Source: Paenibacillus pedocola (GTDB lineage: Bacteria; Bacillota; Bacilli; Paenibacillales; Paenibacillaceae). From it: a stretch of DNA of 64,000 nucleotides. The notes beneath the pieces were generated by a model. That model was not told the DNA's origin. It worked only from the letters and a program-made list of their open reading frames with translations, and did not search any database. Both the position numbers and the translations under genes were made by a program. Each line of letters opens with the position of its first letter. The first letter of the stretch is position 1. Positions 27,487 through 55,610 of this stretch are shown here, piece by piece. Location of the stretch: assembly GCF_031599675.1 (NCBI RefSeq), contig NZ_CP134223.1, positions 1,550,001 through 1,614,000 on the forward strand. The letters run 5' to 3'.

Positions 27487-27489
27487 AGT

Positions 27490-28625: not shown

Positions 28626-28681
28626 ATGTTTTATACATTAGTTTGCGGATCGTTGTATAATGATTGCTTGAGGTGATTACA

Positions 28682-34130: not shown

Positions 34131-34227
34131 AAAATATGGTGGCATCCGGGGTTACATCAATAGTGCAACAATTAATTAGTAGTCAAATGCAATGGTTAAC
34201 CAACTAATGGATGATGGAGGTCGTTAT

Positions 34228-38004: not shown

Positions 38005-38053
38005 GTGTGAAGATACTATAATTTTAAGAACGCTCATTTGAGCGAACGGGACA

Positions 38054-38092
38054 CAGCAGTGGATCAAGATAACTTGATCCACTGCTGCTTTT
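38054..38092 (+). terminator. Strong terminator at the end of block 3
   Basis: A 15-base perfect stem (CAGCAGTGGATCAAG / CTTGATCCACTGCTG) with loop ATAA, followed by CTTTTCAT. It lies about 20 bases before the next sigK fragment. Confidence 0.85.
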
Positions 38093-38111
38093 CATACTTT
38101 TCATGGAATAT

Positions 38112-38327
38112 GAAATCCTGATGCATTTGAGATCGCTTAAAAAGACTAAAAAGGACGTATCCCTGCATGATACGACCGGGACGGACAAGGAAGGTAACGA
38201 GATTACGCTGATCGATATCCTCGGCTCTGACGCAGATGATATTGTGAAGGAAGTGGATCTGAAAATCGAGAAGAGTAAGATATATCGTAATCTGGACATC
38301 TTGGATGATTATAAGGCGAAGCGTTAG
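38112..38327 (+). pseudogene. sigK: sigK 3' fragment, copy D, internally deleted
   Basis: Homology begins exactly at [20 protein letters not shown] and runs to NLDILDD, then jumps to the last codons YKAKR and the stop, losing most of region 4. The left edge coincides with the codons for IENE/IL, where the skin element of B. subtilis is inserted in sigK as I recall it. A short ATG frame (38106) is open but has no ribosome site. Confidence 0.85.
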
Positions 38328-38328
38328 A

Positions 38329-38372
38329 TAAATTTAAAGAGGCCTGTTAAACGACAGGTCTCTTTAAATTTA
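38329..38372. terminator. Hairpin after sigK copy D
   Basis: TAAATTTAAAGAGGCCTGT and ACAGGTCTCTTTAAATTTA form a near-perfect 19-base stem with loop TAAACG. It differs from the hairpin after copies A and B. Confidence 0.75.
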
Positions 38373-38632
38373 TGTTGGTTAACTGATCAGTGAAAGTAAT
38401 TCGAAGATGTTATTTGTTATGTTACTATGCTAATTCCGAGATTGTCGGGTCAGATTTAAGAGGTTGGAATTCGGAAGAGTCAATTGATCTGTTAAGTAAG
38501 GTAGAGAATAACCAATACCGGTCTGCTTCTGTAATCTTCAAGTCACTCAAACGAACTATACTATTAGCGGAAAAGGTATTGAAATTATATAAATCGTGAT
38601 TAATGCGAAAATTGTTTCGAAATTGATTAGGC
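38373..38632. other. Start of block 4, doubtful short frame
   Basis: A 69-codon plus-strand frame (38390-38599, MKVIRRCYLLCYYANSEIVG...) is open, but I neither recognise it nor find a ribosome site. Nothing else is seen. Confidence 0.3.
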
Positions 38633-38708
38633 CCTGATCCTAGCTAGTAACTCCCCGGGATCAAATGGTTTTAAAAGATAATCGTCTGCCCCGCTGTCTA
38701 ATAAGTTA
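38633..38708 (-). pseudogene. Response-regulator receiver-domain remnant
   Basis: The minus strand reads LLDSGADDYLLKPFDPGELLARI, which is the end of a receiver domain (conserved Lys in YLLKPF). The phospho-acceptor part and the output domain are missing, so only about 25 codons of an OmpR-type regulator survive. Confidence 0.65.
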
Positions 38709-39106
38709 GCTCACAAATGTGCCGATTTAAGTTAATGGAAAACGAAAAAACCTCTGAATGAGTAGGAGGTTCTTTATTGTGTCTATTGCGAAGCAGCAAA
38801 GAGTATGATATTTTTAACTTAAAGTTTACACATGGTTAATCATTATCATATTGTAATCTTTTCCTTATTTTCGGAAGAAGGTGAAGAAACGCATACCTTA
38901 ATTTAACCTTCTGCCTGGTACTGATATTTAAACTAGTGAAATTGAACAAAAAACAAGGATTCAAATGATTAAATATGAAAAGGCTCCGGGTTGGATGGCA
39001 TCTTATAATGAAAGCGGAATCAATAATAAAACGCAATGGAGAGTATTCCGGTGTATTGATTTTTTTGCGAATCATGTAAGCGATTAAATAAAGGGAGATG
39101 GATGTT
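38709..39106. other. Upstream region of the GPH symporter
   Basis: About 400 A/T-rich bases. They hold a terminator-like hairpin at 38749-38776 and no credible gene. The symporter promoter must lie here but I could not single out a -35/-10 pair. Confidence 0.4.
38749..38776 (+). terminator. Terminator-like hairpin
   Basis: AACCTC / GAGGTT with an 11-base loop, followed by CTTTATT. Confidence 0.55.
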
Positions 39107-40507
39107 ATGTCAACGACGAATTTAGCGAAGGAACTGCCAGTGCTCGGGGTGGTGAAGCCGCAAGCAGACGGTAAGCTCAGCTTCAAGGAAAGAATCAGCT
39201 ATGGTCTTGGGGATCTAGGCTCCAACCTCATGTGGGGGATTGTCGGAAGCTTTCTGCTGTACTTCTATACTGACGTTGCATTAATTCCGGTAGCGGCTAC
39301 AGGGACTCTGATTCTGGTTGCACGGATTCTGGATTCAATCATTGACCCGGTTATCGGTGGCATGGTCGACCGGACCAATACGAAGTACGGCAGATCGAAG
39401 CCGTATATCCTGTTTGGCATTATCCCGTTTGCCATTATGCTGATTCTGACCTTCACCAGCCCTGACATTTCTGTAACCGGCAAAATCATTTACGCCTCCG
39501 TTACATACATTATCGCCGGTCTGCTGTACTCCCTGGTGAATGTACCTTACGGCGCGCTTATGCCAATGATGACCAGAAGCGGGGAAGAGAAAAATCAGCT
39601 TTCCAGCTTCCGGATGGTCGGTATGGCTGTCGGCAGTATTATTGTAACCGCTTTAACAACACCTATGGTCGAGTTTTTCGGCGGGGGTAATGAGAAGACC
39701 GGTTATCTGTTTACTACTGTCGTATTTGCCGTCCTTAGCGCCATTATGTTCCTTGTAGTCTATAAAAATTGTAAAGAACGTTATGTAGAGCCTGTATCTG
39801 CTGTTAAACAAAAAGGGGCCTTGCTTCAGACTTATAAAAGCGCATTCAAGAATACACCTTGGGTAGCTACGATATTGTTCTCGCTGCTGCTCTTCGTCCG
39901 GACAGGTGCCATTGTCTCGATTACCATCTATTTCTGCCTGCATGTGCTGCACAACCCGGGGATGATCTCTATCCTGCTTCCGTCGCTGTATGTGTCTATA
40001 CTGTTCTCTGCTGCTATTACTCCAGCGTTCCTGCGGAAGTTCAAACAGCGTAAGGGCAACATTATCGCCAATGTTTGTTTTATGATCGGAGTAGCTATCA
40101 TGCCGATGCTTGAAAATAATATGACCCTGTTCGTGGGTGTATGGTTCCTGGCTAATGTGATCGGCGGAATTAGCTCCGGTGCCGTGTTCAGTATGATAGC
40201 TAATTCCGTCGACTACAACGAATGGAAATTCAACAAAAAAGCCGAAGGTACCCTGTACGCAGGATACAGCTTTGCAACAAAAGTCGGAATGGCACTGGGC
40301 AGCGCTGTTGTCGGATATACACTGGCTATGTCCGGCTATAATGCTGAAAAGGTATCACCAGAGGCTTCCTCTGCCATCAATGTATTATTCTTTGCGATTC
40401 CGCTTGTGTGTACGGTACTGCAGATTATTGCCGTTTCCTTCTACAAGCTGGATGCCATTCATCCGCAGGTTGTCCGTGAACTGGAACAAAGAAGAAGCGC
40501 CGTATAA
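39107..40507 (+). CDS. GPH-family glycoside/pentoside:cation symporter
   Basis: This 466-residue, roughly 12-helix transporter belongs to the glycoside-pentoside-hexuronide group of the MFS (XynP/MelB type): FKERISYGLGDLGSNLMWGI at the start and RILDSIIDPVIGGMVDRT...GRSKPYILFG in the first cytoplasmic loop. It imports glycosides with Na+ or H+ without phosphorylation. ATG 39107 is used because AAGGGAG lies 9 bases before it, while ATG 39098 overlaps that site. It heads the block-4 catabolic cluster and is followed by its own terminator. Confidence 0.9.
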   Translation: MSTTNLAKELPVLGVVKPQADGKLSFKERISYGLGDLGSNLMWGIVGSFLLYFYTDVALIPVAATGTLILVARILDSIIDPVIGGMVDRTNTKYGRSKPYILFGIIPFAIMLILTFTSPDISVTGKIIYASVTYIIAGLLYSLVNVPYGALMPMMTRSGEEKNQLSSFRMVGMAVGSIIVTALTTPMVEFFGGGNEKTGYLFTTVVFAVLSAIMFLVVYKNCKERYVEPVSAVKQKGALLQTYKSAFKNTPWVATILFSLLLFVRTGAIVSITIYFCLHVLHNPGMISILLPSLYVSILFSAAITPAFLRKFKQRKGNIIANVCFMIGVAIMPMLENNMTLFVGVWFLANVIGGISSGAVFSMIANSVDYNEWKFNKKAEGTLYAGYSFATKVGMALGSAVVGYTLAMSGYNAEKVSPEASSAINVLFFAIPLVCTVLQIIAVSFYKLDAIHPQVVRELEQRRSAV

Positions 40508-40542
40508 CTACGCTATAAACGGTATACCAAAACTGGAATTTT

Positions 40543-40584
40543 GCAATGCTGTAAGGTTTCGGACTTATAGCATTGCTTTTTTTT
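40543..40584 (+). terminator. Terminator of the symporter gene
   Basis: GCAATGCTGTAAG pairs with CTTATAGCATTGC and is followed by TTTTTTTT. Confidence 0.85.
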
Positions 40585-40595
40585 ACAACCAAAGG

Positions 40596-40608
40596 TTACT
40601 GTTAGTAA
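40596..40608. promoter_or_regulatory. Cluster operator, site 1 (before ROK kinase)
   Basis: TTACTGTTAGTAA is a palindrome with 5-base arms. The wider stretch (GTTACTGTTAGTAAATGATT then AAAC) matches the sequence before 46853 at about 23 of 27 positions. It is a likely binding site for the TetR protein at 43763. Confidence 0.6.
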
Positions 40609-40649
40609 ATGATTAAACGAGAGTACGGAATTAGGAGGAGAAGTGTGCA

Positions 40650-41606
40650 ATGGATAAAAGTGAAAAGCTGTACGTAGGCATTGATCTGGGAGGGACCTCG
40701 GTTAAGGTGGGTTTGTGCAATCGTCACGGGGAACTGCTGGCTGTATACGAAGGGCCGACTGAAGCAGAAAAACGCGCCGAAGGCGTGTTGCAGAACATTG
40801 AGCTGTATGTGAGAGAGCTTGTGGGACGTGAAGGCTGTGACTGGGAGCAGATTGCCGGAATCGGAGCGGGAATTCCCGGATTTCTGGATATGGAGACCGG
40901 TGTGGTCAAGGCTTCTCCCAATCTGGGCTGGAAGGATGTGCCGGTCAAAGCCATTCTGGAAGAAAGACTCGGCAAAGAAGTGCGGATCGACAATGATGCC
41001 AATGTGGCTGCACTCGGGGAAGTATGGAGCGGTGCCGCTGCGGGAATCCCGAATGCGGTATGCTATACACTTGGAACAGGCGTAGGCGGCGGCATTATTA
41101 TCAAGAATGTGCTCTGTCAGGGCTACAGCGGCATGGGCGGCGAAATCGGGCATTTGGGTGTTGTGCCTGCAGAGGAAGCCATTACCTGCGGCTGCGGCCA
41201 AAAGGGGTGCCTTGAAACTGTATCCTCCGCTACAGGGATTATCTACATGGCAAAAGAAGCAGTGATCCGCGGTGAAAAAACCTCACTCGCCCATATCCGT
41301 GAAATCACCGCGAAGGATGTGCTGGACGCGGCCAAAGCCGGCGATCAGGCCGCGGTACGAATTGTGGACCGGGCTGCAGATTATCTGGGTAAATCCATGG
41401 CACTGCTGTCGGTCGTGGTCAATCCGCAGCGTTTTGTGATCGGCGGCGGTGTAGCAAAGGCAGGCAGCTTCCTGCTGGATCAGATCGACCATCACTTCCG
41501 TAAGTATGCACTGGAGAATGCCAAGGCGAATGTGGATATTGTACCGGCTATCCTGGGCAACAATGCTGGCGTGGTAGGTGCGGCCGGGCTTCATGTATTC
41601 GGATGA
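40650..41606 (+). CDS. ROK-family sugar kinase (probable glucokinase)
   Basis: This 318-residue kinase has the ATP loop [14 protein letters not shown], the catalytic segment [12 protein letters not shown], the glycine-rich [12 protein letters not shown], and the ROK zinc motif [10 protein letters not shown] with the preceding GEIGHLGV. It phosphorylates free glucose or a related hexose released in the cytoplasm, a need created by the non-PTS symporter upstream. Ribosome site AGGAGGAGAAG. The stop overlaps the start of the chemoreceptor gene by four bases (ATGA), so the two are translationally coupled. Confidence 0.92.
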
Positions 41607-43672
41607 GCAACATGAAGGTTAATACACGGAATTCCTTATTCGTCAAAATCCTGCTGATCTCTTTGATATGTATGACCGTTCCAATGACCTTCTCTCTTTT
41701 GTATGCCAATGATTCCGTCTCCAAAACCCTGTACACAGAAAGTGCCGGTTCAGTAGCAGCTATTGCCAGTGAAAAGAGAAGTGAAATCGATCTGGCAATC
41801 GGCCAGATTATGGACCAGTCGGTAAGTATTGCTTCCCAGCCGTATATTGTTGACTATATGAAGGGAACGGGTCAACCTGGAAAGTCTGCCGGTGTCATAA
41901 AGGCGCGGATCTCAGATTATCTGAAGGATGTGGTGCAGACCTCCAACGGGCTCTATGAAAATATTTTTATCGTCGGGCTGGAAGGGACTATTCTTATCGA
42001 CGGAATCGGCGGAGATTCAACCGGTAGCAGTGTCGGCGGGGCCGCCCGGAGCTGGCTGCAGGAGGCGGAAGCGAATAAAGGGTCAGTGATTACCGAGACA
42101 GCCCAGCAGTCACCTGTAACGGGACGGCCTGTAATTACTAACGCAGTGATTATCCCGGGTATAGCAGAAGGAGATTCCGCGGGCCTGCTGGTTACATCCA
42201 TTGATCTGGGGGAGCTTGCCGGTAAAGTGAATCAGACTGGGAGCGGACCGGAGCTCAAGACGATGCTGGTCAACGGGGCGGGACTGGTCGTTTCGGCTGC
42301 TGAACCGGAGTATATTTTATCCTTGGATTTAAGCAAGCAGCAGGGTGATCTTCTTGATTATTACAACGGGTTCAAATCCAGCCATTCGGGGTCCGGGGCT
42401 TTTACCCTTGAAGGTGTCCCGTACATAAGCGCTTATGAAAAAAGCAGGATCCAGGATGTATATGCAGTTTCATATACTCCGATGAGCAAATACACTGAAA
42501 AAGCCGAAGAGCTGAATAATAAGCTGATCTTTGTCATGCTGGCGGCGATTCTGCTGTTTTCGCTTATTATTACCGGCTTTGCCCGGTCGGTAACGAAGCC
42601 GATTGCGGCCGGCTCAGCTTATCTCAGAGAAATGGCAGCAGGCAACTGGCAAATTGAGCTTCCTGTCCGGTATATGAATAAAAAGGATGAAACCGGCCTG
42701 CTTATGAGATCGGTGCATCAGATGCAGCAATCTCTCCGTGAAGCCATCGGTACCGTCAAGCAGGAGTCCGATAAGCTGAAGGAGAATGTGGACACGGCCA
42801 AAGGCAGTATTTCCGAGCTGAACAGGCAGATCCGGACGGTCTCGGAGATCACGCAGGAGATGTCGGCAAGTACGGAGGAAACGGCTGCGGCTGCCGATGA
42901 ACTGAGGTTCATGGCATGTGAGACAGAGTCTGCGGTGCAGGCCATGGCTGAAAATGCCGTAAGAGGGGCTGCGGACTCCCGCTCCATTTACACGCGTGCG
43001 CTTGGACTGAAGGAAGGGACAGAGCAGTCGAAGGAGAAGGCAGCCTTTCTTTTGCAGAATCTCAAGGAGAACCTGAACTCGGCTATTGCTCATTCCCAGT
43101 CTGTACACCGGATTAATCTGCTGGTGCAGACGATACTCGGAATTGTCTCGCAGACGAATATTCTTGCGCTGAATGCAGGAATTGAGGCCGCGCGGGCCGG
43201 GGAGACAGGCAAAAGCTTCGCCGTTATTGCCGGTGAAATCCGCAAGCTGGCACAGCAATCGGGCAGATCGGCAGCCGAAATCCGTGAAGTGGCCGCGGAA
43301 GTTCTGAAGGCTGTTGACAATCTGACCCATTGCTCCCGGGAGGCAATTCTCTTTATGGATCAGACGGTGCTACAGGATTATGAGTTGCTTGTCAGCAGCG
43401 GAGAGCAGTATTACCGGGATGCCGCATTTTTTGAGGAGCTGCTTGATACATTCAGCCAGACAGCTGGGGAAATCCGGACATCCATACATAGCATGGCGGT
43501 CAGTATCAGTGAGATTACCCAGGTTAACAGCCAGTTCGCCCTGGATACTGGATTGATCGCAGAGCAGGCGAATGGGATTCTGCAGCAGAGCGTGGTAGTG
43601 GCCGGTACTGCCGGGCAGACAGAAGAAAGCGCGGAGGAGCTGAGAAACGGGATTGCCCGCTTCCAGGTGTAG
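41603..43672 (+). CDS. Methyl-accepting chemotaxis protein
   Basis: This 689-residue receptor has a membrane helix near residues 13-33, a large extracellular Cache-type sensor domain (about 40-300), a second helix ([20 protein letters not shown]), HAMP, and the cytoplasmic four-helix signalling rod with hairpin tip [20 protein letters not shown] and [20 protein letters not shown]. It reports an external ligand to the flagellar motor through CheA/CheW. Its four-base overlap with the ROK kinase gene suggests that the ligand is the cluster's glycoside or its product. Confidence 0.92.
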
Positions 43673-43732
43673 TCCGGCTTGCTTTTTACACCCCCCTGTA
43701 TTATCCTAACAATGATTAACTACGGATTAATG

Positions 43733-43746
43733 GTTTACTATTAAAC
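43733..43746. promoter_or_regulatory. Cluster operator, site 2 (before tetR)
   Basis: GTTTACTATTAAAC, with inverted ends GTTTA / TAAAC, lies 17 bases before the TetR start. TTAATGGTTTACTAT around it matches the reverse strand of the site at 44644-44680. Confidence 0.55.
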
Positions 43747-43762
43747 ATGGGGGAGATGTATT

Positions 43763-44401
43763 ATGGCTACGACTTGGCATCAGGATGTGCGGAACCGGAA
43801 CCGTGAAGAGTTCATTCTGGCCGGACAGCATACGCTGATTGAGCGCAATTTTACTAATGTAGGTCTTAAAGAGATATGCGAACGGGCGAATCTGAGCAAG
43901 GTTACCTTCTATAAATGCTTCAATTCTTTGGACGAGCTGATCTTTGCGGTGCAGCAGAAAATACTGGGTGAGCTGACGGTGTTCATTGAAGAGCATTCTT
44001 CTTCCCGGAGCAGCGGCCTGGAGAGTGTGGAGGGATACCTGGATGTCTGGGTTCAGTTTCTGGAGAACCATCCGGATTATTTGAAATACATCGGATTTTT
44101 TGACCACACCTACCGTGACCATTATCCGAACGAGGAGCTGCAGGCGACCTACAGGGAACTGGTCAGCGACGGTACCATCGGGCGGGTGCTGCAAAATTAT
44201 ATTGAGCAGGGTGTGCGGGACGGCTCGATTCGCCCTGAGCTGCAGCTGCAGAAGACCAGCCTGTTCATCTTTGAAATGATCATCAGCCTGATGCAGCGTC
44301 TGGCCTTCCGCGGCAAGCTGCTGCAGGAGGAGCATGGAGTCGATGTGAAGGAACTCGCGGACACTTCCAAGGCGTTTGTATTGCATTATTTGAAAAGGTA
44401 G
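43763..44401 (+). CDS. TetR/AcrR-family regulator of the glycoside cluster
   Basis: This 212-residue protein has an HTH at about residues 27-52 (FTNVGLKEICERANLSKVTFYKCFNSLDELIF) and an all-helical ligand domain. It sits in the middle of the cluster, and related palindromes precede the kinase, itself, the isomerase at 44711 and the oxidoreductase at 46853, making it the best candidate regulator. Ribosome site GGGGGAG. Followed by a terminator. Confidence 0.87.
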   Translation: MATTWHQDVRNRNREEFILAGQHTLIERNFTNVGLKEICERANLSKVTFYKCFNSLDELIFAVQQKILGELTVFIEEHSSSRSSGLESVEGYLDVWVQFLENHPDYLKYIGFFDHTYRDHYPNEELQATYRELVSDGTIGRVLQNYIEQGVRDGSIRPELQLQKTSLFIFEMIISLMQRLAFRGKLLQEEHGVDVKELADTSKAFVLHYLKR

Positions 44402-44452
44402 TTTGAGTGGTGGACGCATATAGCAGATATGCCGTCGGTTAACGGCCGATCT

Positions 44453-44482
44453 AGCGGATTCCTTGGGGAATCCGCTTTTTTG
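44453..44482 (+). terminator. tetR terminator
   Basis: AGCGGATTCC / GGAATCCGCT with a 4-base loop, followed by TTTTTT. Confidence 0.85.
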
Positions 44483-44643
44483 TGCGCTTCTAACCGGGTG
44501 GCAGGAGGTGCGCCCTCGGGCCAAACGAGCCAATCACAGGCAAAAATGCCGTTGATTCCGCCCCGGCTGGCTGCTCGCCCCGTAGAAATGTGTGCGTTTT
44601 CCCTTGCAAAGCAAGACAAATAGTGATAAAGTAATATTAAAGA

Positions 44644-44680
44644 GTTACTTATAGTTAACCATTAATTATAGATAAACTAT
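44644..44680. promoter_or_regulatory. Cluster operator, site 3 (before the isomerase at 44711)
   Basis: GTTACTTATAGTTAAC at 44644-44659 has inverted ends GTTA / TAAC, and TAAACTATTA follows from 44673. On the reverse strand TTAATGGTTAACTAT matches TTAATGGTTTACTAT at site 2 with one change. Confidence 0.5.
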
Positions 44681-44710
44681 TACTGGCTTATTAGGAAAGG
44701 AAGCGCGCAT

Positions 44711-45502
44711 ATGAAGCTGGGAATTATTGCTGCAGTCAACGAGGAAAGCTTTGTTCAGGCCAAAAGCAGAGGTTTGAGTTTTCTGGAATTCACCATTAAT
44801 GAGGGAGATAACGTAGACGAATTTACCAGTCAGGTTGAACAGATTGCTGAGTGGTCTTCCAAGTATGGTATTGAGGTCGGATCAATCGGACGCTGGAAAT
44901 CGCTTCGGATAGACACGCATGGCGCGATTATCCGTGAAGAGCTGGAGCGTTGCTTCAGGCTGATTGATGCTGCAGCCCGGCTGAATTGCCCGAGCTTCGT
45001 GGCCGGCTGCAACTATGTGGAAGAGCTGTCGCTATATGAGAATTGCACGGCGGCGATCGCTTTTTTCAGCGAACTGATTGCCTATGCCAAGCCGAAGAAC
45101 GTCGCCGTCTCCTCCTATAACTGCCGTAAAGTAAACTTTGTAAATACCCCGGATATCTGGCGGATCATTCATGGACATCTGCCGGAGCTGGGCATTAAAT
45201 TTGATCCGTCGCATGCCCGTTTCTTCGGAGGGGACTATCTGCAAGAGACGCTGGACTGGGGGCACCGGTTCACCCATGTGCACCTCAAAGGCTCACTGCT
45301 TGTGAACGGACAGAAGGTGGATGAGCCGCCGGCCGGGATGGACCAGACCGACTGGCCTTCATTTATAGCTACACTGAGAGCAGCCGGATATGACGGCGGA
45401 CTCAGTATAGAGCCGCGCAAATCGGCGCTTCCGGACTATCTGGCTGACAAAGGCATTGATTTCTCCGTGTCCTATTTCAAAAAGCTGCTGCTTGAAGATT
45501 AA
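44711..45502 (+). CDS. Sugar phosphate isomerase/epimerase family TIM barrel (263 residues)
   Basis: This short barrel starts KLGIIAAVNEESFVQAKSRG and shows KFDPSHARFFGGDY, THVHLKGSL and GLSIEPRK, where the Asp, His and Glu are probable metal ligands. The usual first Glu ligand (LExH) appears as VAVSSYNCR, so its chemistry may differ from canonical members. It is the first gene of the unit with the oxidoreductase at 45518 (15-base gap). A role on a keto-sugar intermediate is inferred from context. Confidence 0.8.
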   Translation: MKLGIIAAVNEESFVQAKSRGLSFLEFTINEGDNVDEFTSQVEQIAEWSSKYGIEVGSIGRWKSLRIDTHGAIIREELERCFRLIDAAARLNCPSFVAGCNYVEELSLYENCTAAIAFFSELIAYAKPKNVAVSSYNCRKVNFVNTPDIWRIIHGHLPELGIKFDPSHARFFGGDYLQETLDWGHRFTHVHLKGSLLVNGQKVDEPPAGMDQTDWPSFIATLRAAGYDGGLSIEPRKSALPDYLADKGIDFSVSYFKKLLLED

Positions 45503-45517
45503 GAAGAGGTGATTACA

Positions 45518-46606
45518 TTGACAGATAAATTAAAGTACGCGCTGATCGGCGCAGGCGGCAATGCCGAGAAGAAGCATATCCACGGCTATCTGGCCCTTGA
45601 GGATGTTGAGGTTGTTGCCGTCTGCGATATTGATGCAGGCAAGGCAACCCGGATGGCAGAGAAGTACAATGTGCCGGGTGTATACAGTGACTATAAGGAG
45701 ATGTTCCTCAAAGAACGTCCCGATATCGTCAGTATTGTTACGCCTAACTACCTTCATGCGGAAATTACCGAATTCGCTTTGGCACATGGCGCCCATGTCC
45801 ACTGCGAGAAGCCGCTCAGCATCAGCAGTGAGGAGGCCAGCCGCATTATTGCTGCCCGCGACCGTTCCGGCAAGCAAGTCATGATCGGCCTTAACAACCG
45901 GTTCCTTAATGAAGCTGTCTTCCTGAAAAAGTGGATTGATGACGGGAATCTCGGCAACATCTACAATGCCAAAGCCGGCTGGATCCGCCGCAGCGGCATC
46001 CCGGGCAGAGGAACCTGGTTCACCGATAAGGACCGTTCCGGCGGCGGGGTTATGATTGACCTGGGCGCCCACTATCTGGATCTTGCTCTGTACTTTATGG
46101 GCTTGCCCAAGGTTTCCTATGTGGCCGGCAGCATCCACCAGAACTTTGTCCATACAACCGCCCGGAACCGCAACGGCTACAAAGGGATTGAAGGCGGACT
46201 GTTTAACGTGGAGGATGCGGCAACCGGTTACCTCGGACTGGTAAACGGGGCCAGCCTGTCGTTTGATTTCAGCTGGGCTTCCAATATTGAAGAGGACCGT
46301 TTCTACGTGGAGCTAATGGGCTCAAAAGGCGGAGCCAGCCTTGTTAACGGGCAGCTGAAGCTGTTCGGCGAAAGCTCGGATATCTGTCTGGATATTACCC
46401 CCAAGCTGAAGCTGAACCCGACGCTGCAGCTGAAGAACGAGTTCCGGCATTTTGTTGACAGTATCCGGCATGGAGGCAGTACGCTGATTGCTCCGGCGGA
46501 AGACGGCCTGTATTTTGCTGAAATCGTAGATGCATTCTATCAAAGCGCTGCAGCTGGTGCACCGGTTATTTTGAAGCAGGAGCAGCCGGTAGCGGCGGTC
46601 AGATAA
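45518..46606 (+). CDS. Gfo/Idh/MocA family oxidoreductase, first of two in the cluster
   Basis: This 362-residue NAD(P)-dependent enzyme has the Rossmann motif YALIGAGGNAEKKHIHGY, the catalytic-Lys motif CEKPLSIS and the segment GGGVMIDLGAHYLDLALY with the second catalytic His/Asp. TTG 45518 is preferred because AAGAGGTG ends 8 bases before it; GTG 45509 lies inside that site. In C- and O-glycoside cleavage by 3-keto routes an enzyme of this family oxidises the sugar at C3, so this gene or the one at 46853 is a candidate for that step. Confidence 0.9.
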   Translation: MTDKLKYALIGAGGNAEKKHIHGYLALEDVEVVAVCDIDAGKATRMAEKYNVPGVYSDYKEMFLKERPDIVSIVTPNYLHAEITEFALAHGAHVHCEKPLSISSEEASRIIAARDRSGKQVMIGLNNRFLNEAVFLKKWIDDGNLGNIYNAKAGWIRRSGIPGRGTWFTDKDRSGGGVMIDLGAHYLDLALYFMGLPKVSYVAGSIHQNFVHTTARNRNGYKGIEGGLFNVEDAATGYLGLVNGASLSFDFSWASNIEEDRFYVELMGSKGGASLVNGQLKLFGESSDICLDITPKLKLNPTLQLKNEFRHFVDSIRHGGSTLIAPAEDGLYFAEIVDAFYQSAAAGAPVILKQEQPVAAVR

Positions 46607-46626
46607 AGCTTTAATATTGTACGCGG

Positions 46627-46673
46627 CATGCGGCATTCCGGAGGGGAAAACCCCGGGATGGCGCATGTTTTTA
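46627..46673 (+). terminator. Terminator after the first oxidoreductase
   Basis: CATGCGGCATTCCGGAGGGG pairs imperfectly with CCCCGGGATGGCGCATG around AAAA and is followed by TTTTT. Confidence 0.7.
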
Positions 46674-46765
46674 CTTTGAATTGATAGCGGTTACAAAATG
46701 ATTGAAAATCTGCAAAATAACCACTTGCCAAACAAAAGCGGGAGTGATATTGTATGAACAGGAAG

Positions 46766-46819
46766 TTTACTATCAGTAAATCATTAAACAAATGATAATT
46801 ATTAATTGATAGTAAATAA
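46766..46819. promoter_or_regulatory. Cluster operators, sites 4 and 5 (before 46853)
   Basis: TTTACTATCAGTAAA (46766-46780) is a perfect palindrome with 6-base arms. A related inverted sequence TTAATTGATAGTAAATAA follows at 46802-46819. Two sites 36 bases apart would suit cooperative repression of the unit that starts at 46853. Confidence 0.6.
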
Positions 46820-46852
46820 CTTCGCAATCATTCATTTCAGGAGGAAACTAAC

Positions 46853-47950
46853 GTGAGCAAAAAATTGAGATTCGGATTTATCGGCTGTGGCGGTATCGCC
46901 AATCAGAAGCATTTCCCGGCACTTGCCGCTCTTAGTGAAGAAGCAGAGCTGGTGGCCTTCTGCGATATCGTGGAAGAGCGTGCGGCTAAGGCAGCCAAGC
47001 AATACGGGATTGAAAATGCAAGCGTATACACAGATTACAAAGAACTGCTGAAGGATGAAACGCTGGATGTCGTGCATGTCCTGACTCCCAACGTGTCCCA
47101 CTCCTACATCACGGTTGATGCGCTGGAGGCCGGCAAGCATGTACTGTGCGAAAAGCCGATGGCCATTAGCACCGAGGAAGCACAGAAAATGCTGGATGCC
47201 GCCAAGCGTACCGGCAAAAAGCTAACAATCGGCTACCAGAACCGTTGCCGCGTTGATTCACTGGCTCTGCATGAAGCCTGCGAGAATGATGAGCTTGGTG
47301 AAATTTATTTTGCCAAAGCGCATGCTGTACGTCGTAAAGCCGTTCCGACCTGGGGTGTATTCCCGGACAAATCGAAACAGGGCGGCGGCCCGCTGATTGA
47401 TATCGGTACCCATGCACTGGATCTGACTCTGTGGAACATGAATAACTATAAACCAAAAATGGTTGTCGGCTCGACTTACCAGAAGCTGAGCAACAACCCG
47501 ATGGGCAATATGTTCGGACCTTGGGACCCTGAGACATTTGAAGTGGAAGACTCCGCCTTCGGCTTCATCAAGATGGAGAATGGTGCAACGATTTATCTTG
47601 AAGCAGCCTGGGCGCTCAACGTACTGGACGGTAAGGAAGCCCAGGTTACGCTGTGCGGAACCAAAGCGGGTGCGGAAATGCGCGGTAAAGCATTCCTGGA
47701 TGAAGGTTATGTGGTGTTCAACACTGCACAGCACGGTCAACTGGTTGAAACCGGCCCGTCTGACGGCGGCGGTGTAGCGTACTTCAGCGGAGAGAGCCGC
47801 AGAGCGAACGATGTGGAAGCACGGATGTGGCTGGATGCGCTGCTCAATGATAAAGAGCCGCTGGTTAAACCGGAGCAGGCACTGGTTGTAACGCAAATTC
47901 TTGAAGCGATCTACAAATCGGCAGAAACAGGCGAGCCGGTATTCATCTAA
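46853..47950 (+). CDS. Gfo/Idh/MocA family oxidoreductase, second of two
   Basis: This 365-residue enzyme has FGFIGCGGIANQKHFPAL, CEKPMAIS and GGGPLIDIGTHALDLTLWNM. It starts with GTG after AGGAGGAAAC. It is the first gene of the longest unit in the cluster (oxidoreductase, isomerase, AraC-GH39, then the deglycosidase pair). It may oxidise the glycoside at C3 or reduce the released 3-keto-sugar; sequence alone cannot decide which of the two oxidoreductases does which. Confidence 0.9.
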   Translation: MSKKLRFGFIGCGGIANQKHFPALAALSEEAELVAFCDIVEERAAKAAKQYGIENASVYTDYKELLKDETLDVVHVLTPNVSHSYITVDALEAGKHVLCEKPMAISTEEAQKMLDAAKRTGKKLTIGYQNRCRVDSLALHEACENDELGEIYFAKAHAVRRKAVPTWGVFPDKSKQGGGPLIDIGTHALDLTLWNMNNYKPKMVVGSTYQKLSNNPMGNMFGPWDPETFEVEDSAFGFIKMENGATIYLEAAWALNVLDGKEAQVTLCGTKAGAEMRGKAFLDEGYVVFNTAQHGQLVETGPSDGGGVAYFSGESRRANDVEARMWLDALLNDKEPLVKPEQALVVTQILEAIYKSAETGEPVFI

Positions 47951-47966
47951 AGAAGGTGTGGTAACA

Positions 47967-48935
47967 ATGAAACTTGGAGTATTCTCCGTATTGCTGCAGC
48001 AGCGACCGCTGGAGGAGGCGCTCGATATTATCGCTTCCAAAGGACTGGATGCTGTTGAGCTGGGAACCGGCGGTTATCCCGGCAATCATCATTGCAAGCC
48101 CGATGAGCTGCTGGCTGATGCCGGCAAGCTGAAGGCCTTCAAGCAGCAGTTTGAATCCAGAGGGCTAAGCATCAGCGCACTGAGCTGCCACGGCAACCCG
48201 CTGCATCCGCAGAAGGCATTGGCCCGTCAATATCATGAGGAGTTCATGAAGACCCTCGACCTTGCCGAGCGTCTGGAGGTTCCGGTTGTAGTCGGCTTCT
48301 CCGGCTGTCCCGGTGACTCCGAAGATGCGAAGTATCCCAACTGGCCGGTTGCACCGTGGCCGAACGAATACGGCGAGCTACTGGCCTGGCAATGGGAGCA
48401 GAAGGTGATTCCTTACTGGAAGGAAACCGGCCGCTGCGCACAGGACAAAGGGCTGAAGATTGCACTGGAAATGCATGGCGGCTTCTCCGTCCATACACCG
48501 GCTACACTGCTGAAGCTGCGCGACGCAGCGGGCGAAGCCATCGGGGCCAACCTTGATCCAAGTCACATGTGGTGGCAGGGCATTGATCCGCTGCAGGCGG
48601 TTCAGATTCTCGGCCGGGCCGGCGCCCTGCATTACTTCCATGCCAAGGATACCGTAATTGATCCAGTCAACGTCAACCGTTACGGGGTTACGGATATGCA
48701 GCCGTACACGGCACTGCTGGACCGGGCCTGGAATTTCCGCTCTGTCGGCTATGGCCATGACAGCAAAACCTGGGCGGATCTGATCAGCACACTGCGGCTG
48801 GTCGGTTATGATTATGTCATCAGCATTGAACATGAGGATGGACTGATGTCGGTAGGAGAGGGCTTCTCCAAAGCGGTGGATACACTGAAGCCGCTGCTCA
48901 TCCGTGAGCCGGCAGCAGAGATGTGGTGGGTCTGA
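47967..48935 (+). CDS. Sugar phosphate isomerase/epimerase family TIM barrel (322 residues)
   Basis: This barrel shows the full ligand set: ALEMHGGF (Glu), NLDPSHMWW (Asp), YFHAKDT (His) and ISIEHEDG (Glu). The N-terminus KLGVFSVLLQQRPLEEALD and the segment VVGFSGCPGD are typical of the subgroup found beside Gfo/Idh/MocA enzymes. ATG 47967 follows AGAAGGTG; an earlier in-frame opening lies inside the previous gene. It probably acts on keto- or hexose intermediates of the cluster. Confidence 0.87.
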   Translation: MKLGVFSVLLQQRPLEEALDIIASKGLDAVELGTGGYPGNHHCKPDELLADAGKLKAFKQQFESRGLSISALSCHGNPLHPQKALARQYHEEFMKTLDLAERLEVPVVVGFSGCPGDSEDAKYPNWPVAPWPNEYGELLAWQWEQKVIPYWKETGRCAQDKGLKIALEMHGGFSVHTPATLLKLRDAAGEAIGANLDPSHMWWQGIDPLQAVQILGRAGALHYFHAKDTVIDPVNVNRYGVTDMQPYTALLDRAWNFRSVGYGHDSKTWADLISTLRLVGYDYVISIEHEDGLMSVGEGFSKAVDTLKPLLIREPAAEMWWV

Positions 48936-48967
48936 TCTACAGATAACAATGGGAAAGGAGCTGTGCA

Positions 48968-51469
48968 ATGGAGAAGTCCGGGCATCCTATACTACGGATT
49001 ATACCCCGCTTGTCATTACAAACGTCGATTATTACCGAACGGGATTCCGGCTCCGTTGCCAGTCCCGATATCCTGATTGTCTATGTGCTGCGGGGCAACC
49101 TGACGGTGCAGCAGCAGGAACGGAAGCTTATGCTCGGGCCGCATGAGTTCATCCTGTTTAATCCGCTTGAGGAGCATAAGCTGAATGCCGGTAAGGATGT
49201 TCTGGCTGCCCGGTTCAGGGTTCCCCAGGAGCTGCTTACATTCTTCGGCGGCCAGGAGGAGACAAGGTTTTTCTGCTGCTCCGTGCGGGAGCGCAAGGAA
49301 AGCGACGATGAGCTGCGGAGCATGTTTACGGAAATTCTACAGGGGCGCATACGGAATAAAACAATGCATCCTGTAGTGGAGATTAAACTGACCTTTGAGC
49401 TGCTTCATCTGCTGCTAAGCCATTACACCGTTAAAACGGCAGCAGTCGGCTCCATGCTTACGCCTAACAAGCCGAATCAGCGGCTGATGGAGATTTGCTC
49501 CTATATGCAGGCGAACTACCGGCAGCCGCTGACTCTGAATGAAGTGGCCGAACAGCATTATGTTTCCGTGCCCTATCTCTCCAAATCCTTCAAGAAAGAG
49601 ACAGGCATGACGTTCTCGGAATACCTGAATCAGATCCGTCTGGATCATGCGATGGCCCATCTGCTGTATACAGATCAGCCGATTACACGGATTGCGCTGG
49701 ACAGCGGCTTCCCGAGTCTGACCGCGTTTAACCGGGTGTTCCGGGAAGCGTATCAGCTGACGCCTTCCCAGTACCGGAAGGCGGCGCTGGAATCCGGTCT
49801 AGCACGAACAAGTGAAGAGGAAGGGTCAGTGCTTGCTGAAAAGGCTGATCTGAGAGAGCTGGAAGCGCTAATCAACAATCACTCTTTGCCCGATGCCTCC
49901 ATCGTGACGGTTCAGGCTGTGCCGGAACAGGCGGCCAGCTATAAAAGAGTCTGGAAGGAAATCATCAACATCGGCTACGCCCGCGATCTGCTGAATTCCG
50001 ATCTGCAGGAGCAGCTGCCGCTGATCCGCACCGATCTGGGTTTCACCTATGCCCGGGTGTGGGGAATCTTCAGCGATGAGATGATGATCGAGGACCCGTC
50101 GGACCCGGATAACGGCTATAACTTTAGCAATATCGATAAGCTGATTGATATTCTGATCCGCCACAATTTGCGGCCGTACCTTGAGCTCGGCGACAAGCCG
50201 AAGCTGATCCAGAAGAATGCCGCCCAGAAGATGGGAAAGGCTCCTGCGGTACACCGGCAGAGAGGGGCGGAGGAATGGAAAAGGCTGATCCGATCCTTTC
50301 TCATTCACTGCATCAACCGCTACGGCAGCGAAGAAGTGGAAAGCTGGTATTTCGAGCTGTGGCATTCCAGCAAGCATGCGTTTCTGTTTGAGGGGGTGGA
50401 CGATCTGGTCAGTACCGCTTACCAGCCGGGTGAAATGGAGCAGTGGTTCAATGATTATTTTGTCCGGTTTGATCTGACCTGGAGGGAATTGAAGGAGCTG
50501 CTGCCTGCGGCAAGGCTTGGGGGCTGCGGATTAAGCATGGATCTGGAAGGGCGCTTTCTGCCGCTTCTGTTGGACAGGTGGAGCCGCAGGGAGATCGTTC
50601 CGGATTTCCTGTCTGTCTATCTCTATCCGTATGAATTCATTACGCCTGCTGACGGGAGCGCCCCGGTGTTTGCACATTCAGCCGATGAGCATTGGATCCT
50701 TCATACGATTCAGGCGGTCAGACAGTCACTGGCCGATCATGGCCTTACGCATTTACCGCTGCATGTGTCGGAATGGAACTTCAGTATTTCGAACAGGGAC
50801 CCGCTGAATGACAGCATCTTCAAAGCCTCATATATTCTCAAAAATATGACGGAGTCGCTCGGTGAACAGGTGCTGATGGGCTACTGGCTCTACTCTGACA
50901 TTTTCAGCGAGTTCAGGGACTCCCGGCGTTTGCTGCACGGGGGAGCAGGGCTGATCTCCAAAAACGGGATCAAAAAGCCTGCTTACTATGCATTCGCTTT
51001 CCTGAACCGGATGGGCAAGCAGCTGATCGGCCGGGGCCGGGATTACATGCTGACCAAACGCAGCGGTGACCGCTACCAGCTCCTGTGCTTTCATTACCGG
51101 CATTCCGAGCTGAGCGGTTACGGGGAGTCAGAGCCTGTGTCTGTGCCGGATGAGCTTCAGGAGCCAGGAACCACCGGATCTAAGCCGCTGGAGCGTAAAT
51201 TCCGTCTGGAGGGTCTGAAGGACGGCAGCTACCGGCTGAAGCGTTCCTCTGTCAGCAGCGAGCGGGGCAGCATTCTTAAAGAGTGGAAAAAATTCGGCGC
51301 TGTCCACGATATCCGACCCGATGAAATTATGTTCCTGAAGCAGATCTGTGTGCCGGACATTTCCGTAGAGCATGTGGAGGTGAGAGGCGGAAGAATGGAG
51401 ATCAGCAGCTCACTACGCGCTCACGAAATGTGCCTGATCGAGCTGGAGCTGAGAATGGATACGTTATAA
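48968..51469 (+). CDS. AraC-type regulator fused to a GH39-like domain
   Basis: This 833-residue protein has a cupin-like segment (about 20-90), an AraC double HTH (about 170-275: LTLNEVAEQHYVSVPYLSKSF...ITRIALDSGFPSLTAFNRVF) and a GH39 beta-xylosidase-like barrel from about 310 (TYARVWGIFSD; YFELWHSSKHA; VSEWNFSISNR). At the acid/base position GH39 enzymes have WNEP; here it is WHSS (residues 465-468), so that Glu is absent, while the nucleophile-position Glu602 remains. The fused barrel is therefore likely a sugar sensor rather than an enzyme. No signal peptide. It may activate the cluster alongside the TetR protein. Confidence 0.88.
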   Translation: MEKSGHPILRIIPRLSLQTSIITERDSGSVASPDILIVYVLRGNLTVQQQERKLMLGPHEFILFNPLEEHKLNAGKDVLAARFRVPQELLTFFGGQEETRFFCCSVRERKESDDELRSMFTEILQGRIRNKTMHPVVEIKLTFELLHLLLSHYTVKTAAVGSMLTPNKPNQRLMEICSYMQANYRQPLTLNEVAEQHYVSVPYLSKSFKKETGMTFSEYLNQIRLDHAMAHLLYTDQPITRIALDSGFPSLTAFNRVFREAYQLTPSQYRKAALESGLARTSEEEGSVLAEKADLRELEALINNHSLPDASIVTVQAVPEQAASYKRVWKEIINIGYARDLLNSDLQEQLPLIRTDLGFTYARVWGIFSDEMMIEDPSDPDNGYNFSNIDKLIDILIRHNLRPYLELGDKPKLIQKNAAQKMGKAPAVHRQRGAEEWKRLIRSFLIHCINRYGSEEVESWYFELWHSSKHAFLFEGVDDLVSTAYQPGEMEQWFNDYFVRFDLTWRELKELLPAARLGGCGLSMDLEGRFLPLLLDRWSRREIVPDFLSVYLYPYEFITPADGSAPVFAHSADEHWILHTIQAVRQSLADHGLTHLPLHVSEWNFSISNRDPLNDSIFKASYILKNMTESLGEQVLMGYWLYSDIFSEFRDSRRLLHGGAGLISKNGIKKPAYYAFAFLNRMGKQLIGRGRDYMLTKRSGDRYQLLCFHYRHSELSGYGESEPVSVPDELQEPGTTGSKPLERKFRLEGLKDGSYRLKRSSVSSERGSILKEWKKFGAVHDIRPDEIMFLKQICVPDISVEHVEVRGGRMEISSSLRAHEMCLIELELRMDTL

Positions 51470-51502
51470 CACAAATTATTATTAAAGAAACGAGGGGTAA
51501 AC

Positions 51503-52489
51503 ATGTCCAGTATTAAACGGGCAGTAAGCTTGTACAGCTACCAGGATGAATATGTGCGCGGCAAATTGTCGCTGGAAGGGTGTCTGCAGGAGCTTGCGGA
51601 GATTGGTGTGGAAGGGGTGGAGGTCATCACGGACCAGATGTTCCACAACACGCCGGAAACCGACGATGCGAGCATCAAAAACTGGAAACGGATAGTTAAG
51701 GAAACGGGAATCGTTCCGGTCTGCAACGATATTTTTATCAATACGAACCTGTATCATAACCGCATGCTGACCAAGAAAGAAAACCTGGATTTCCTGAAAA
51801 AAGAGCTGGTCCAGGCTCACAATCTTGGCTTCCCGATGGTCCGTCTTGTTTCCGCCACACCGGCCGACATTATTGAGGAGGCCCTGCCGCTTGCGGAAGA
51901 GCTGAATGTCATCATGGCGCTTGAAGTGCATGCCGGAATGGCTTTTGACAATGCAATGACCAAGAAATTTACCGACATCATGTTCAAGCTGAATTCGCCT
52001 TATCTGGGTCTGGTCGTGGATACAGGGATTTTCTGCCGCAGACATCCGCGCGTATCCACAGCCTTTTTCCTCGATCAGGGCTTGAATCCTGAGATTGTAA
52101 AATATATCGACGACATCTTTGCCAGCGGGGATGATCCTCTGGAACTATCCCATAACAAGCTGCCGGAAGATTTGGAAAAAATGGTCCGTTCCCGGATCGA
52201 CAGAGAATATATTATCTTCGCGGGCGGATATGAGAACAAGGATTTCTCCGTTCTGGACCCTTATATGCCGTATGTGAAGCATTTCCACGGCAAGTTCTGG
52301 GAGATGACTGAAGAAGGCACAGAATACTCCATTCCTTATAAGGAACTTATTGAATATCTCAAGGAAAAAGGCTACGAGGGTTATATTGCCAGTGAATATG
52401 AAGGCGGCCGGTTTGCCCTTCCGGGAACCGAGATTGATGCTGTGACTCAAGTAAGATTGCAGCAAGATATGCTGCGTTCCTATATCTAA
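51503..52489 (+). CDS. C-glycoside deglycosidase alpha-subunit-like TIM barrel
   Basis: This 328-residue protein starts SIKRAVSLYSYQDEYVRGKL, the opening I associate with the alpha subunits of C-glycoside deglycosidases (CarB/DgpC type). Probable Mn ligands are Glu141 (ALEVHAG), Asp173 (LVVDTGIF), His260/262 (KHFHGKF) and Glu298/300 (IASEYEGG). These enzymes cleave 3-keto C-glucosides (and some O-glycosides) by proton abstraction and elimination, not hydrolysis. The gene 19 bases downstream encodes the matching small subunit, which is the strongest support. The natural aglycone is unknown. Confidence 0.82.
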   Translation: MSSIKRAVSLYSYQDEYVRGKLSLEGCLQELAEIGVEGVEVITDQMFHNTPETDDASIKNWKRIVKETGIVPVCNDIFINTNLYHNRMLTKKENLDFLKKELVQAHNLGFPMVRLVSATPADIIEEALPLAEELNVIMALEVHAGMAFDNAMTKKFTDIMFKLNSPYLGLVVDTGIFCRRHPRVSTAFFLDQGLNPEIVKYIDDIFASGDDPLELSHNKLPEDLEKMVRSRIDREYIIFAGGYENKDFSVLDPYMPYVKHFHGKFWEMTEEGTEYSIPYKELIEYLKEKGYEGYIASEYEGGRFALPGTEIDAVTQVRLQQDMLRSYI

Positions 52490-52508
52490 GCAGAGGAGAG
52501 AAGAGTAC

Positions 52509-52901
52509 ATGTTCGATAACTATGTCTTAACAGATAACAGCCTTGAGAATGTCAAAAAAGACGGGGAAATCACCGGCTACAAAATGCGTACGCGCATTAC
52601 CTACTACCGCGGCATTCCGCTTTCCATGGTCCATGATATCCAGGTTGAGGTGGACGGCCAAGAGGTTCCGCGTGAGAGCATCCGTTTTTCACCGGACGGG
52701 GAGATTTATTTTACACTTGAAGAAATGAAGACCGTAACCAGCTACAAATGGGAATACGGACAAGAAGGTATTGTGTATGTCGAGCAGGCAGGCGGACTTC
52801 CGGCAGGAGAGCATACAATCAAATTGACACAAGTATCACGTGTCGCCTATATACCGGTGCCGTTCTCCGGGTCACAGACTAAAACCCTTACTGTTATTTA
52901 A
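52509..52901 (+). CDS. C-glycoside deglycosidase beta-subunit-like protein (DUF6379 type)
   Basis: This 130-residue beta-rich protein has the pattern of the deglycosidase beta subunits: LTDNSLENVKKDGEITGYKM, YYRGIPLSMVHDIQVEVDGQ, GGLPAGEHTIKLTQVSR, and the ending YIPVPFSGSQTKTLTV. In known complexes it binds the alpha barrel and shapes the substrate pocket. The ribosome site is AGAGGAGAGAAG. It is the last gene of block 4, followed by a short hairpin and the sigK copy E. Confidence 0.82.
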   Translation: MFDNYVLTDNSLENVKKDGEITGYKMRTRITYYRGIPLSMVHDIQVEVDGQEVPRESIRFSPDGEIYFTLEEMKTVTSYKWEYGQEGIVYVEQAGGLPAGEHTIKLTQVSRVAYIPVPFSGSQTKTLTVI

Positions 52902-52934
52902 TGATTCCTTAAGTGGATAAAGGAAGAGTAAGGG

Positions 52935-52958
52935 CCGCTTTTATCGAAAAGCCGTTTT
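52935..52958 (+). terminator. Terminator of the deglycosidase unit
   Basis: CCGCTTTT / AAAAGCCG with loop ATCG (one mismatch), followed by TTTT; it runs directly into the sigK fragment. Confidence 0.55.
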
Positions 52959-53405
52959 GGGCTTAGCAAAGCCATCGAGAGCTACCGCCCGAACAAAGGC
53001 ACGAAGCTAGCGACCTTTGCTGCCCGTTGTATTGAAAACGAAATTCTGATGCATTTGAGATCGCTTAAAAAGACTAAAAAGGACGTATCCCTGCATGATC
53101 CTATAGGAACAGACAAGGAAGGTAATGAGAATACGCTGATCGTTATCCTCGGCTCCGACTCAGATGATATTGTTAAGGAAGTGGATCTGAAGATCGAGAA
53201 GAGTAAGATTTAACGCAATCTCGATATTCTCGATGAACGTGAGAAAGAGGTGGTCGTCGGCCGCTTCGGCTTGGATACCGGCGAGGAAGAGCGGACGCAG
53301 CGGGAGATTGCAAAGGAGCTAGGGATTTCGCGGAGTTATGTGTCGCGGATAGAGAAGAGGGCGTTCATGAAGCTTTATCATGAGTTTTATAAGGCGAAGC
53401 GGTGA
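52959..53405 (+). pseudogene. sigK: sigK 3' fragment, copy E, with a stop codon
   Basis: Homology starts around GL(S)[20 protein letters not shown] and continues to the sigK stop. A TAA replaces the Tyr codon in KIYRNL (near 53212), so it cannot yield region 4 from this frame. After the stop, GAAATTACAACGTAATGTA resembles the sequence after intact sigK (GATAATTACAATGTAGTAT), which would fit copy E being the original chromosomal 3' end pushed away from its gene. Confidence 0.9.
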
Positions 53406-53445
53406 GCTTGAAATTACAACGTAATGTACATTAGCATACTTGATA

Positions 53446-53488
53446 AAGGGCTGTCCCTCAAGGTATTCAACCTTGTGAGACAGCCCTT
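53446..53488. terminator. Hairpin between sigK copy E and GH42
   Basis: AAAGGGCTGTC pairs with GACAGCCCTT, with an inner CAAGGT-ATTCA-ACCTTG hairpin. T tracts are poor on both strands, but the position after the GH42 stop fits a terminator. Confidence 0.55.
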
Positions 53489-53511
53489 CGCAAAGATACA
53501 AGCCGCTGATT

Positions 53512-55497: not shown

Positions 55498-55610
55498 CCT
55501 TAATCTCCTTTGCTCATCAATATATTGCGATTATATGCTATATTAATTGGAGTGAATATCCTAAATATTTAATACGATATAACAATATTAAGATAGCAGG
55601 AGTTGGTCGC

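Follow-up and report, generated by a model that had tools for sequence, protein, structure and literature searches.

Organization of the gene cluster

We analyzed a 64,000-nucleotide (nt) stretch of the Paenibacillus pedocola genome (hereafter, the window), in which positions 39098–52901 hold eleven genes, all on the plus strand in the open reading frame (ORF) listing, including a pair of genes for a C-glycoside deglycosidase (CGD). C-glycosides are widespread in plants and resist ordinary glycosidases. We consider it highly probable that the cluster specifies a dgp-type pathway that cleaves glycosides by beta-elimination of their 3-keto forms, most likely acting on C-glucosides. This reading is built on computed family membership, catalytic residues, and synteny, from which we infer the reaction order, the substrate, and the regulation. 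The source genome consists of one contig of 6.47 Mb, and a profile search found a single CGDB match in it.

The first gene (39098–40507) encodes a GPH-type cation symporter (MFS_2; PF13347, E = 7.8e−92; TIGR00792, 389.7 bits against a curated cut-off of 231.35), a likely glycoside importer, and is followed on its 3′ side by a terminator-like hairpin with a T run (40543–40576, plus strand; a consensus match in a pattern scan). The second gene (40650–41606) encodes a ROK-family glucokinase (TIGR00744, 291.3 bits against a curated cut-off of 260.35) with the ROK motifs CxCGxxGCxE (zinc), DNDAN, and ExGH, and overlaps by 4 nt with the gene for a methyl-accepting chemotaxis protein (MCP) with a dCache sensor domain (41603–43672; PF00015, 8.7e−28; PF02743, 1.4e−13). 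A TetR-type regulator (43763–44401; PF00440, 3.4e−6) follows, with a second terminator-like hairpin 3′ of it (44453–44476, plus strand; again a consensus match). Next come a sugar isomerase/epimerase-type barrel of the AP_endonuc_2 family, here called TIM1 (44711–45502; PF01261, 8.7e−21), and, after a gap of 6 nt, Gfo1 (45509–46606; PF01408, 3e−28; closest solved structure DgpA 7xr9, 2.3e−56), the second of two Gfo/Idh/MocA dehydrogenases. The other is a DgpA-type glycoside 3-dehydrogenase (46853–47950), and the remaining genes encode a further AP_endonuc_2 barrel, TIM2 (47970–48935; 2zds, 1.6e−11; AtHYD 8ro4, 1.2e−8), an AraC-type regulator fused to a domain resembling glycoside hydrolase family 39 (GH39; 48968–51469; HTH_18, 5.2e−24; PF01229, 5.5e−47), and the CGD alpha (51503–52489; DgpC-type metal-dependent beta-eliminase barrel; 9m3b_A, 1.5e−96) and beta (52509–52901; DgpB-type, PF19906 [CGDB], 9.9e−41; 9m3b_B, 3.4e−36) chains.

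An original prediction, made from the letters of the window, had named these genes; each was found as a plus-strand ORF at or very near the predicted place with the predicted family matched (Pfam or TIGR), and in the case of the symporter the gene is real while the proposed start, 39107, falls inside the ORF 39098–40507. From DgpA to CGD beta, successive genes are separated by gaps of 19–33 nt, of which the gap between alpha and beta measures 19 nt. Given these gaps, the 4-nt overlap, and the two hairpins, the probable transcription units are the symporter alone, ROK–MCP–TetR, and TIM1–Gfo1 with DgpA–TIM2–AraC–alpha–beta as one or two operons. No Rfam family reached its gathering threshold in positions 38000–56000, and a tRNA search of the window found none.

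The CGD alpha/beta pair

Judged from their sequences, the ORFs at 51503–52489 and 52509–52901 are a CGD alpha/beta pair. The closest solved homologue of both chains is 9m3b (P581a DgpC1/DgpB1), with 48.0% identity for alpha and 50.0% for beta, and the alpha chain matches eight distinct solved chains at E <1e−20, including DgpC, DfgA, and the AgCGD2 entry 7dnm, whose partner chains in turn match the beta gene of the window. The E-values (9.9e−41 for CGDB and 1.5e−96 for alpha against 9m3b) exclude a chance origin, as does the joint occurrence of TIM1, Gfo1, DgpA, and both CGD genes in seven other genomes of the genus. Homology searching, which had been chosen beforehand as a means of refuting the predicted assignment, placed both chains inside the deglycosidase families. 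An open-access literature search found nothing on P581a, W974-1, or DgpC1 that accounts for the entries 9m3b and 9m3d.

In AgCGD2, the metal ligands are reported as Glu147, Asp179, His269, Lys271, and Glu305, with His149 as the base and Glu307 as its helper, in the portion of Mori et al. (2021, PMC8563793) consulted. The counterparts in the window alpha chain are E141, D173, H262, K264, and E298 for the metal, H143 for the base, and E300 for the helper, so that the 1His/2Glu/1Asp/1Lys metal site, the catalytic His, and the supporting Glu are all present. Among 136 alpha-type rows, comprising the window chain and the locus ORFs that align to it over at least 250 columns, E141, D173, and K264 are invariant (136/136 each), and E298 (135/136), H143 (132/136), E300 (131/136), and H262 (126/136) are nearly so. 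For the beta chain of PuCGE, the sections consulted of Bitter et al. (2023, PMC10628242) describe a Tyr39Phe change that effectively abolished all C-glucoside activity and reduced O-glucoside activity only partly. Tyr33 of the window beta chain, the second Tyr of the YYRG motif, aligns with this oxyanion Tyr39 and is present in 100 of the 100 beta rows collected; its conservation is the best sequence argument that C-glycosides are the substrate. The CGDB E-value, the solved homologues, the catalytic residues, and the tree described below together support the prediction that the cluster serves elimination of 3-keto glycosides and includes CGD alpha and beta chains.

Distribution and phylogenetic placement

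When named genomes were scanned by pattern, 363 of the 399 matches proved to encode relatives; the best 80 were kept and represent 79 distinct loci, 77 of which include a beta gene. Among the loci kept, the nearest named alpha relatives, each 97% identical, come from an uncultured Paenibacillus (OKU20) and P. typhae CGMCC 1.11012. A separate search of 150 genomes, the source genome included, yielded any CGDB match in 11, strong (E <1e−30) in eight and weak in three more. TIM1, Gfo1, DgpA, and the CGD alpha/beta genes occur together in all eight strong-CGDB genomes (the source genome and seven others of the genus).

A quick maximum-likelihood tree (127 rows, with long branches) placed the window alpha chain in a 14-row clade (SH-aLRT 100) with sequences from Paenibacillus, Bacillus, a Lachnospiraceae genome, Clostridiales, Treponema, and Nanchangia (L032, flagged by the program for its long branch and of unsure placement) and with 9m3b. 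DgpC of strain PUE (C8), DfgA of Eubacterium cellulosolvens (C6), and 8qvc were placed apart from this clade; therefore, the site preference (C6 or C8) of the characterized enzymes is not transferable to the window enzyme, and the predicted flavone glucoside substrate found no support. In Bacillus sp. MM2020_1, approximately 14 kb (L028, 1480–15294) hold four CGD pairs, each from a different clade, which suggests that the clades differ in substrate. In P. typhae, another CGD pair (L016, 1732–9180) lies approximately 17 kb from the first; it is 29% identical to the window alpha and beta chains and accompanied by its own DgpA (94% identical to that of the window), symporter, TetR, and AraC–GH39 genes.

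Comparison with known systems

The nearest solved relatives of the window proteins are P581a DgpB1/DgpC1 (9m3b), which shares the window alpha clade, and W974-1 DgpA1 (9m3d). The dgpABC system of the intestinal strain PUE/Dorea, in which DgpB–DgpC is known as PuCGD/PuCGE, likewise combines an NAD-containing DgpA with a CGD pair and has equal catalytic residues; for this system, hydration and reduction to glucose have already been proposed in print. The systems differ in alpha clade and in two residues: Asn144, which follows the catalytic His of PuCGE, is Ala144 in the window chain, and a Gly of the window chain aligns with Tyr303 of PuCGE. The intestinal strain contrasts with a Paenibacillus that has the extra TIM1–Gfo1, AraC/pseudo-GH39, and MCP genes. 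The dfgABCDE locus of E. cellulosolvens (EuCGD) similarly holds a CGD pair, a DgpA-like DfgE, and a further pair, DfgCD, although its DfgA is lid-less and belongs to another alpha clade. The Agrobacterium AtOGE/AtHYD/Gfo operon (Bitter 2023) follows the same oxidation–elimination–hydration–reduction logic, and TIM2 resembles its AtHYD, but it uses the flavoenzyme GlycDH and a single-chain OGE in place of the NAD-containing DgpA and the two-chain CGD. PurABC and CarABC of soil actinobacteria likewise rely on a CGD step to use C-glycosides; their first step is catalyzed by an FAD oxidase, whereas a Gfo/Idh/MocA enzyme would serve here.

Kumano et al. (2025, PMC12724307) treat the NAD/DgpA version as a trait of the gut and the FAD version as one of the soil; Paenibacillus is named there among the carriers, and DgpABC homologues in the genus are thereby already in print. 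Therefore, this kind of cluster is already known, chiefly from bacteria of the gut. The retention of a complete dgp-type cluster in several Paenibacillus species, P. typhae included, blurs the gut/soil divide.

The proposed pathway

In the proposed pathway, the GPH symporter would bring the glycoside into the cell, and DgpA (46853) would oxidize the glucosyl C3 hydroxyl with its bound NAD. The 3-keto glycoside would then bind the divalent metal of the alpha/beta CGD, where His143 would remove the C2 proton and Tyr33 of the beta chain would stabilize the phenolate, so that the sugar–aglycone bond would be cut by beta-elimination to give the aglycone and 2-hydroxy-3-keto-glucal. TIM2 would hydrate the latter to 3-keto-glucose, which DgpA (or Gfo1) would reduce to glucose, restoring NAD in a redox-neutral cycle, and the ROK kinase would phosphorylate the glucose to glucose 6-phosphate. 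Expression would probably be governed by the AraC/pseudo-GH39 protein and the TetR regulator.

The DgpA gene product shares 76.5% identity over 361 positions with its nearest relative, DgpA1 from W974-1 (9m3d, 4.2e−190; 7xr9 DgpA, 3.9e−145), and its motifs CEKPM and DIGTH correspond to the CEKP/DxGxH pattern of DgpA-type Gfo/Idh/MocA enzymes. According to the part consulted of a study of D3dgpA (PMC11239390), that enzyme passes hydride from the glycoside to 3-oxo-glucose via bound NAD, and it also oxidizes O-glucosides. Therefore, the loop would be redox-neutral if 3-keto-glucose forms in the cell.

TIM2 is a probable 2-hydroxy-3-keto-glucal hydratase. It retains the metal motifs E-x-H, D, H, and E, and its model matches AtHYD 8ro4 with Z = 31.7 (root-mean-square deviation 2.4 over 291), second to the uncharacterized 2zds (Z = 33.2) and ahead of the next match at 27.9; relatives of 56–58% identity lie close to CGD genes in three Chloroflexota loci (L035, L052, and L058). 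Two parallel modules occur in the same genome. The first (L125, 5011–8926) reads AraC, a DgpA-like protein (63%), ThuA, and a TIM2-like protein (60%). The second (L126, 6323–11543) reads an AtOGE-like barrel, a DgpA-like protein (62%), Gfo, a TIM2-like protein (74%), and an APH/fructosamine-kinase-type protein; the best solved match of its barrel, which has a His-Asn-His motif, is AtOGE 8bvk (3e−22). The gene content of the three modules suggests one dehydrogenase–hydratase core combined with putative bond-breaking enzymes of three different kinds, among which the CGD would be the one for C-glycosides.

Several observations weigh against a C-glucoside pathway encoded by the whole cluster. With the two terminator-like hairpins, the stretch comprises no fewer than three transcription units, and the symporter, kinase, and MCP may serve another function. 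DgpA homology was rejected as sole proof of the pathway because a DgpA-like protein (E up to 1e−60) occurs in 142 of the 150 genomes; among the matches listed, those outside clusters are 61–70% identical. TIM2 scores slightly better with 2zds than with the hydratase in both sequence and fold, the cluster of P. piscarius (G067) holds just a 27% relative of it, and its two paralogues in the same genome sit in modules without a CGD. P. typhae has no AraC–GH39 gene at this place, a 28% relative standing beside its second CGD pair. Finally, O-glycosides may be the natural substrates, because PuCGE cleaves 3-keto O-glucosides too.

Alternative readings of the cluster

TIM1 and Gfo1 could correspond to DfgC–DfgD of E. 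cellulosolvens and add another deglycosylation arm, with which the cluster would cleave both C- and O-glucosides; we regard this reading as doubtful. The two are tied to CGD loci: TIM1 was found in eight of the eight strong-CGDB genomes with at least 75% identity in each case, always paired with Gfo1, and in six of the 79 named loci, with Gfo1 in the same six, and Gfo1 adjoins TIM1 in every examined locus where TIM1 is more than 60% identical. In the other 142 genomes, five have TIM1 matches (E up to 1e−20) of 50–54% identity; six stretches around such weaker relatives held a Gfo1 relative (41%) in one, a DgpA-like protein (57%) in another, and ABC permeases in three. According to a study of Catenibacillus (PMC11170127), the DfgCD proteins of C. 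scindens and of E. cellulosolvens, the latter encoded in the dfg operon, deglycosylate O-glucosides. The active site of TIM1 argues against such a role. Tyr136-Asn137-Cys138 is invariant in 14 of 14 homologues, with Asp165, His191, and Glu234 also kept, and this Tyr-x-Cys replaces the Glu-x-His of CGDs and the His-x-His of AtOGE, its position being judged from the spacing of the sequence and the end of strand 5 in the model; across the 14 aligned homologues, the strand-5 His-x-His metal ligand/base of AtOGE is absent. A profile of the 14 sequences gave only weak hits among PDB sequences and, up to E = 1, did not match 8bvk. TIM1–Gfo1 looks like an unusual companion pair of CGD loci whose active site is odd.

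TIM1 is a well-predicted barrel (AlphaFold2 mean pLDDT 91.2). Its best fold matches include Art22 (Z = 26.7), AtHYD (24.6), and the 3-keto-glucoside 4-epimerase YcjR (24.2), with AtOGE 8bvk not among the best 50; fold searching was rejected as a route to function, since sugar epimerases of many kinds match about equally. Over residues ~128–189, the profile weakly matched ribosomal uL5 proteins (best E = 7.1e−4), probably by chance.

It is unlikely that the pathway is confined to the CGD operon (~44711–52901) and that the symporter, ROK, MCP, and TetR genes (39098–44401) belong to an unrelated sugar function next door. Such a division would fit the terminator-like hairpins 3′ of the symporter and TetR genes, the absence of the MCP from G040, and the failure to find ROK or MCP in the G038 and G067 stretches, but symporter relatives occur near CGD genes in Neobacillus (34–36%), P. 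piscarius (39%), and Bacillus sp. B1-b2 (61%), and ROK relatives occur in CGD loci of Enterococcus, Vagococcus, and Bacillus. A second glucokinase elsewhere in the genome outscores the cluster ROK (309.1 versus 291 bits).

The chemoreceptor had been predicted to be dedicated to this pathway. The MCP gene was found in the window and in three of the six relatives with a visible upstream region (G037, G022, and G017); the G040, G038, and G067 stretches lack it, and the upstream region of G025 lies outside the view. It also occurs in one of the 79 named CGD loci, many of which are too short upstream or come from other phyla. Against the three relatives, the sensor half (65–81% identity) is no better conserved than the signaling half (65–87%). 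The MCP was accordingly rejected as part of the conserved set, a role as a dedicated receptor found no support, and the gene is accessory and variably present. The predicted C-glycoside (or O-glycoside) pathway is upheld by family, residues, and synteny, whereas its flavone substrate and dedicated chemoreceptor are not supported.

That the same enzymes act mainly on 3-keto O-glucosides (aryl O-glucosides or disaccharides), with C–C cleavage absent or a side activity, is likewise improbable: PuCGE also cleaves 3-keto-phlorizin, a DgpA-type enzyme oxidizes O-glucosides, and the dfgABCDE locus combines C- and O-deglycosylation, but a separate beta subunit with an invariant oxyanion Tyr is a requirement of C-glycoside cleavage, and the genome already has a separate AtOGE-like O-glycoside eliminase module and a ThuA module.

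The AraC/pseudo-GH39 regulator

Two regulators had been predicted in the cluster, and both are present (TetR, 43763–44401; AraC, 48968–51469); the GH39 domain of the second had gone unnoticed. In an alignment with the solved beta-xylosidases 2bs9 and 1w91, the acid/base motif WNEP reads WHSS in the regulator, and the nucleophile Glu is kept (HVSEWN against HITEYN in 2bs9). We take the Glu of WNEP to be the acid/base and that of HITEYN to be the nucleophile of GH39 beta-xylosidases; 2bfg has Ala at the WNEP Glu position, consistent with the acid/base assignment.

AraC–GH39 genes occur in 16 of 24 Bacillota CGD loci and in none of the 55 other loci, the phyla being taken from the record titles. 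As background, GH39 matches were found in 24 of 60 relatives, a count that covers Paenibacillaceae-order relatives and leaves out Lachnospiraceae and Enterococcaceae. In the 27 copies from CGD loci, which include close relatives (six Paenibacillus copies all read WHSS), the acid/base Glu is missing from 25 and the nucleophile Glu is present in 26. The exceptions are L063, which retains WNEP; L034 (18669–20990), with a Glu in a column beside an insertion; and the L016 copy, without the nucleophile Glu. L070 (1223) and L073 (11210) also have an insertion at the acid/base column, where the letters are unsure, and L031 and L048 have Asp in this column. A paralogue encoded at another place in this genome has both Glu residues and serves as a control.

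The simplest reading is that the GH39 domain of the regulator is probably a dead glycosidase serving as a sensor, one that presumably retains its sugar pocket. More tentatively, and with somewhat greater doubt than confidence, Bacillota C-glycoside clusters may be run by a dedicated AraC factor that senses through this domain, binding the glycoside or its keto product uncut. If true, an enzyme would have been repurposed to sense a class of sugar conjugates that is otherwise inert. An open-access literature search for AraC–GH39 or C-deglycosylation regulators, judged by title and the start of the abstract, returned nothing relevant. The leads from the cluster are the pseudo-glycosidase sensor, common in Bacillota clusters, and the enzyme pair with an odd active site that is tied to the clusters.

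Neighboring genes

Upstream of the cluster, positions 32874–38004 encode a protein with a weak cohesin match (5.4e−5) and three SLH stretches, followed by a GH43–CBM6–Big2 protein ending in a dockerin; the two may form a small cellulosome-like pair at the cell surface. A relative of the SLH–cohesin protein is encoded downstream of the CGD cluster in G040 (L015, 17588–18613). Positions 20935–29254 hold genes for two zinc alcohol dehydrogenases, an alpha/beta hydrolase, short-chain dehydrogenases/reductases, a flavin mononucleotide oxidoreductase, an aldo-keto reductase, and a TetR regulator. At 13385–15182, a ThuA gene (PF06283, 1e−47) followed by a Gfo/Idh/MocA gene forms another pair of the 3-keto-sugar type, near a GH1 gene (9779–11194, minus strand), a LacI regulator, and a GH43 gene.

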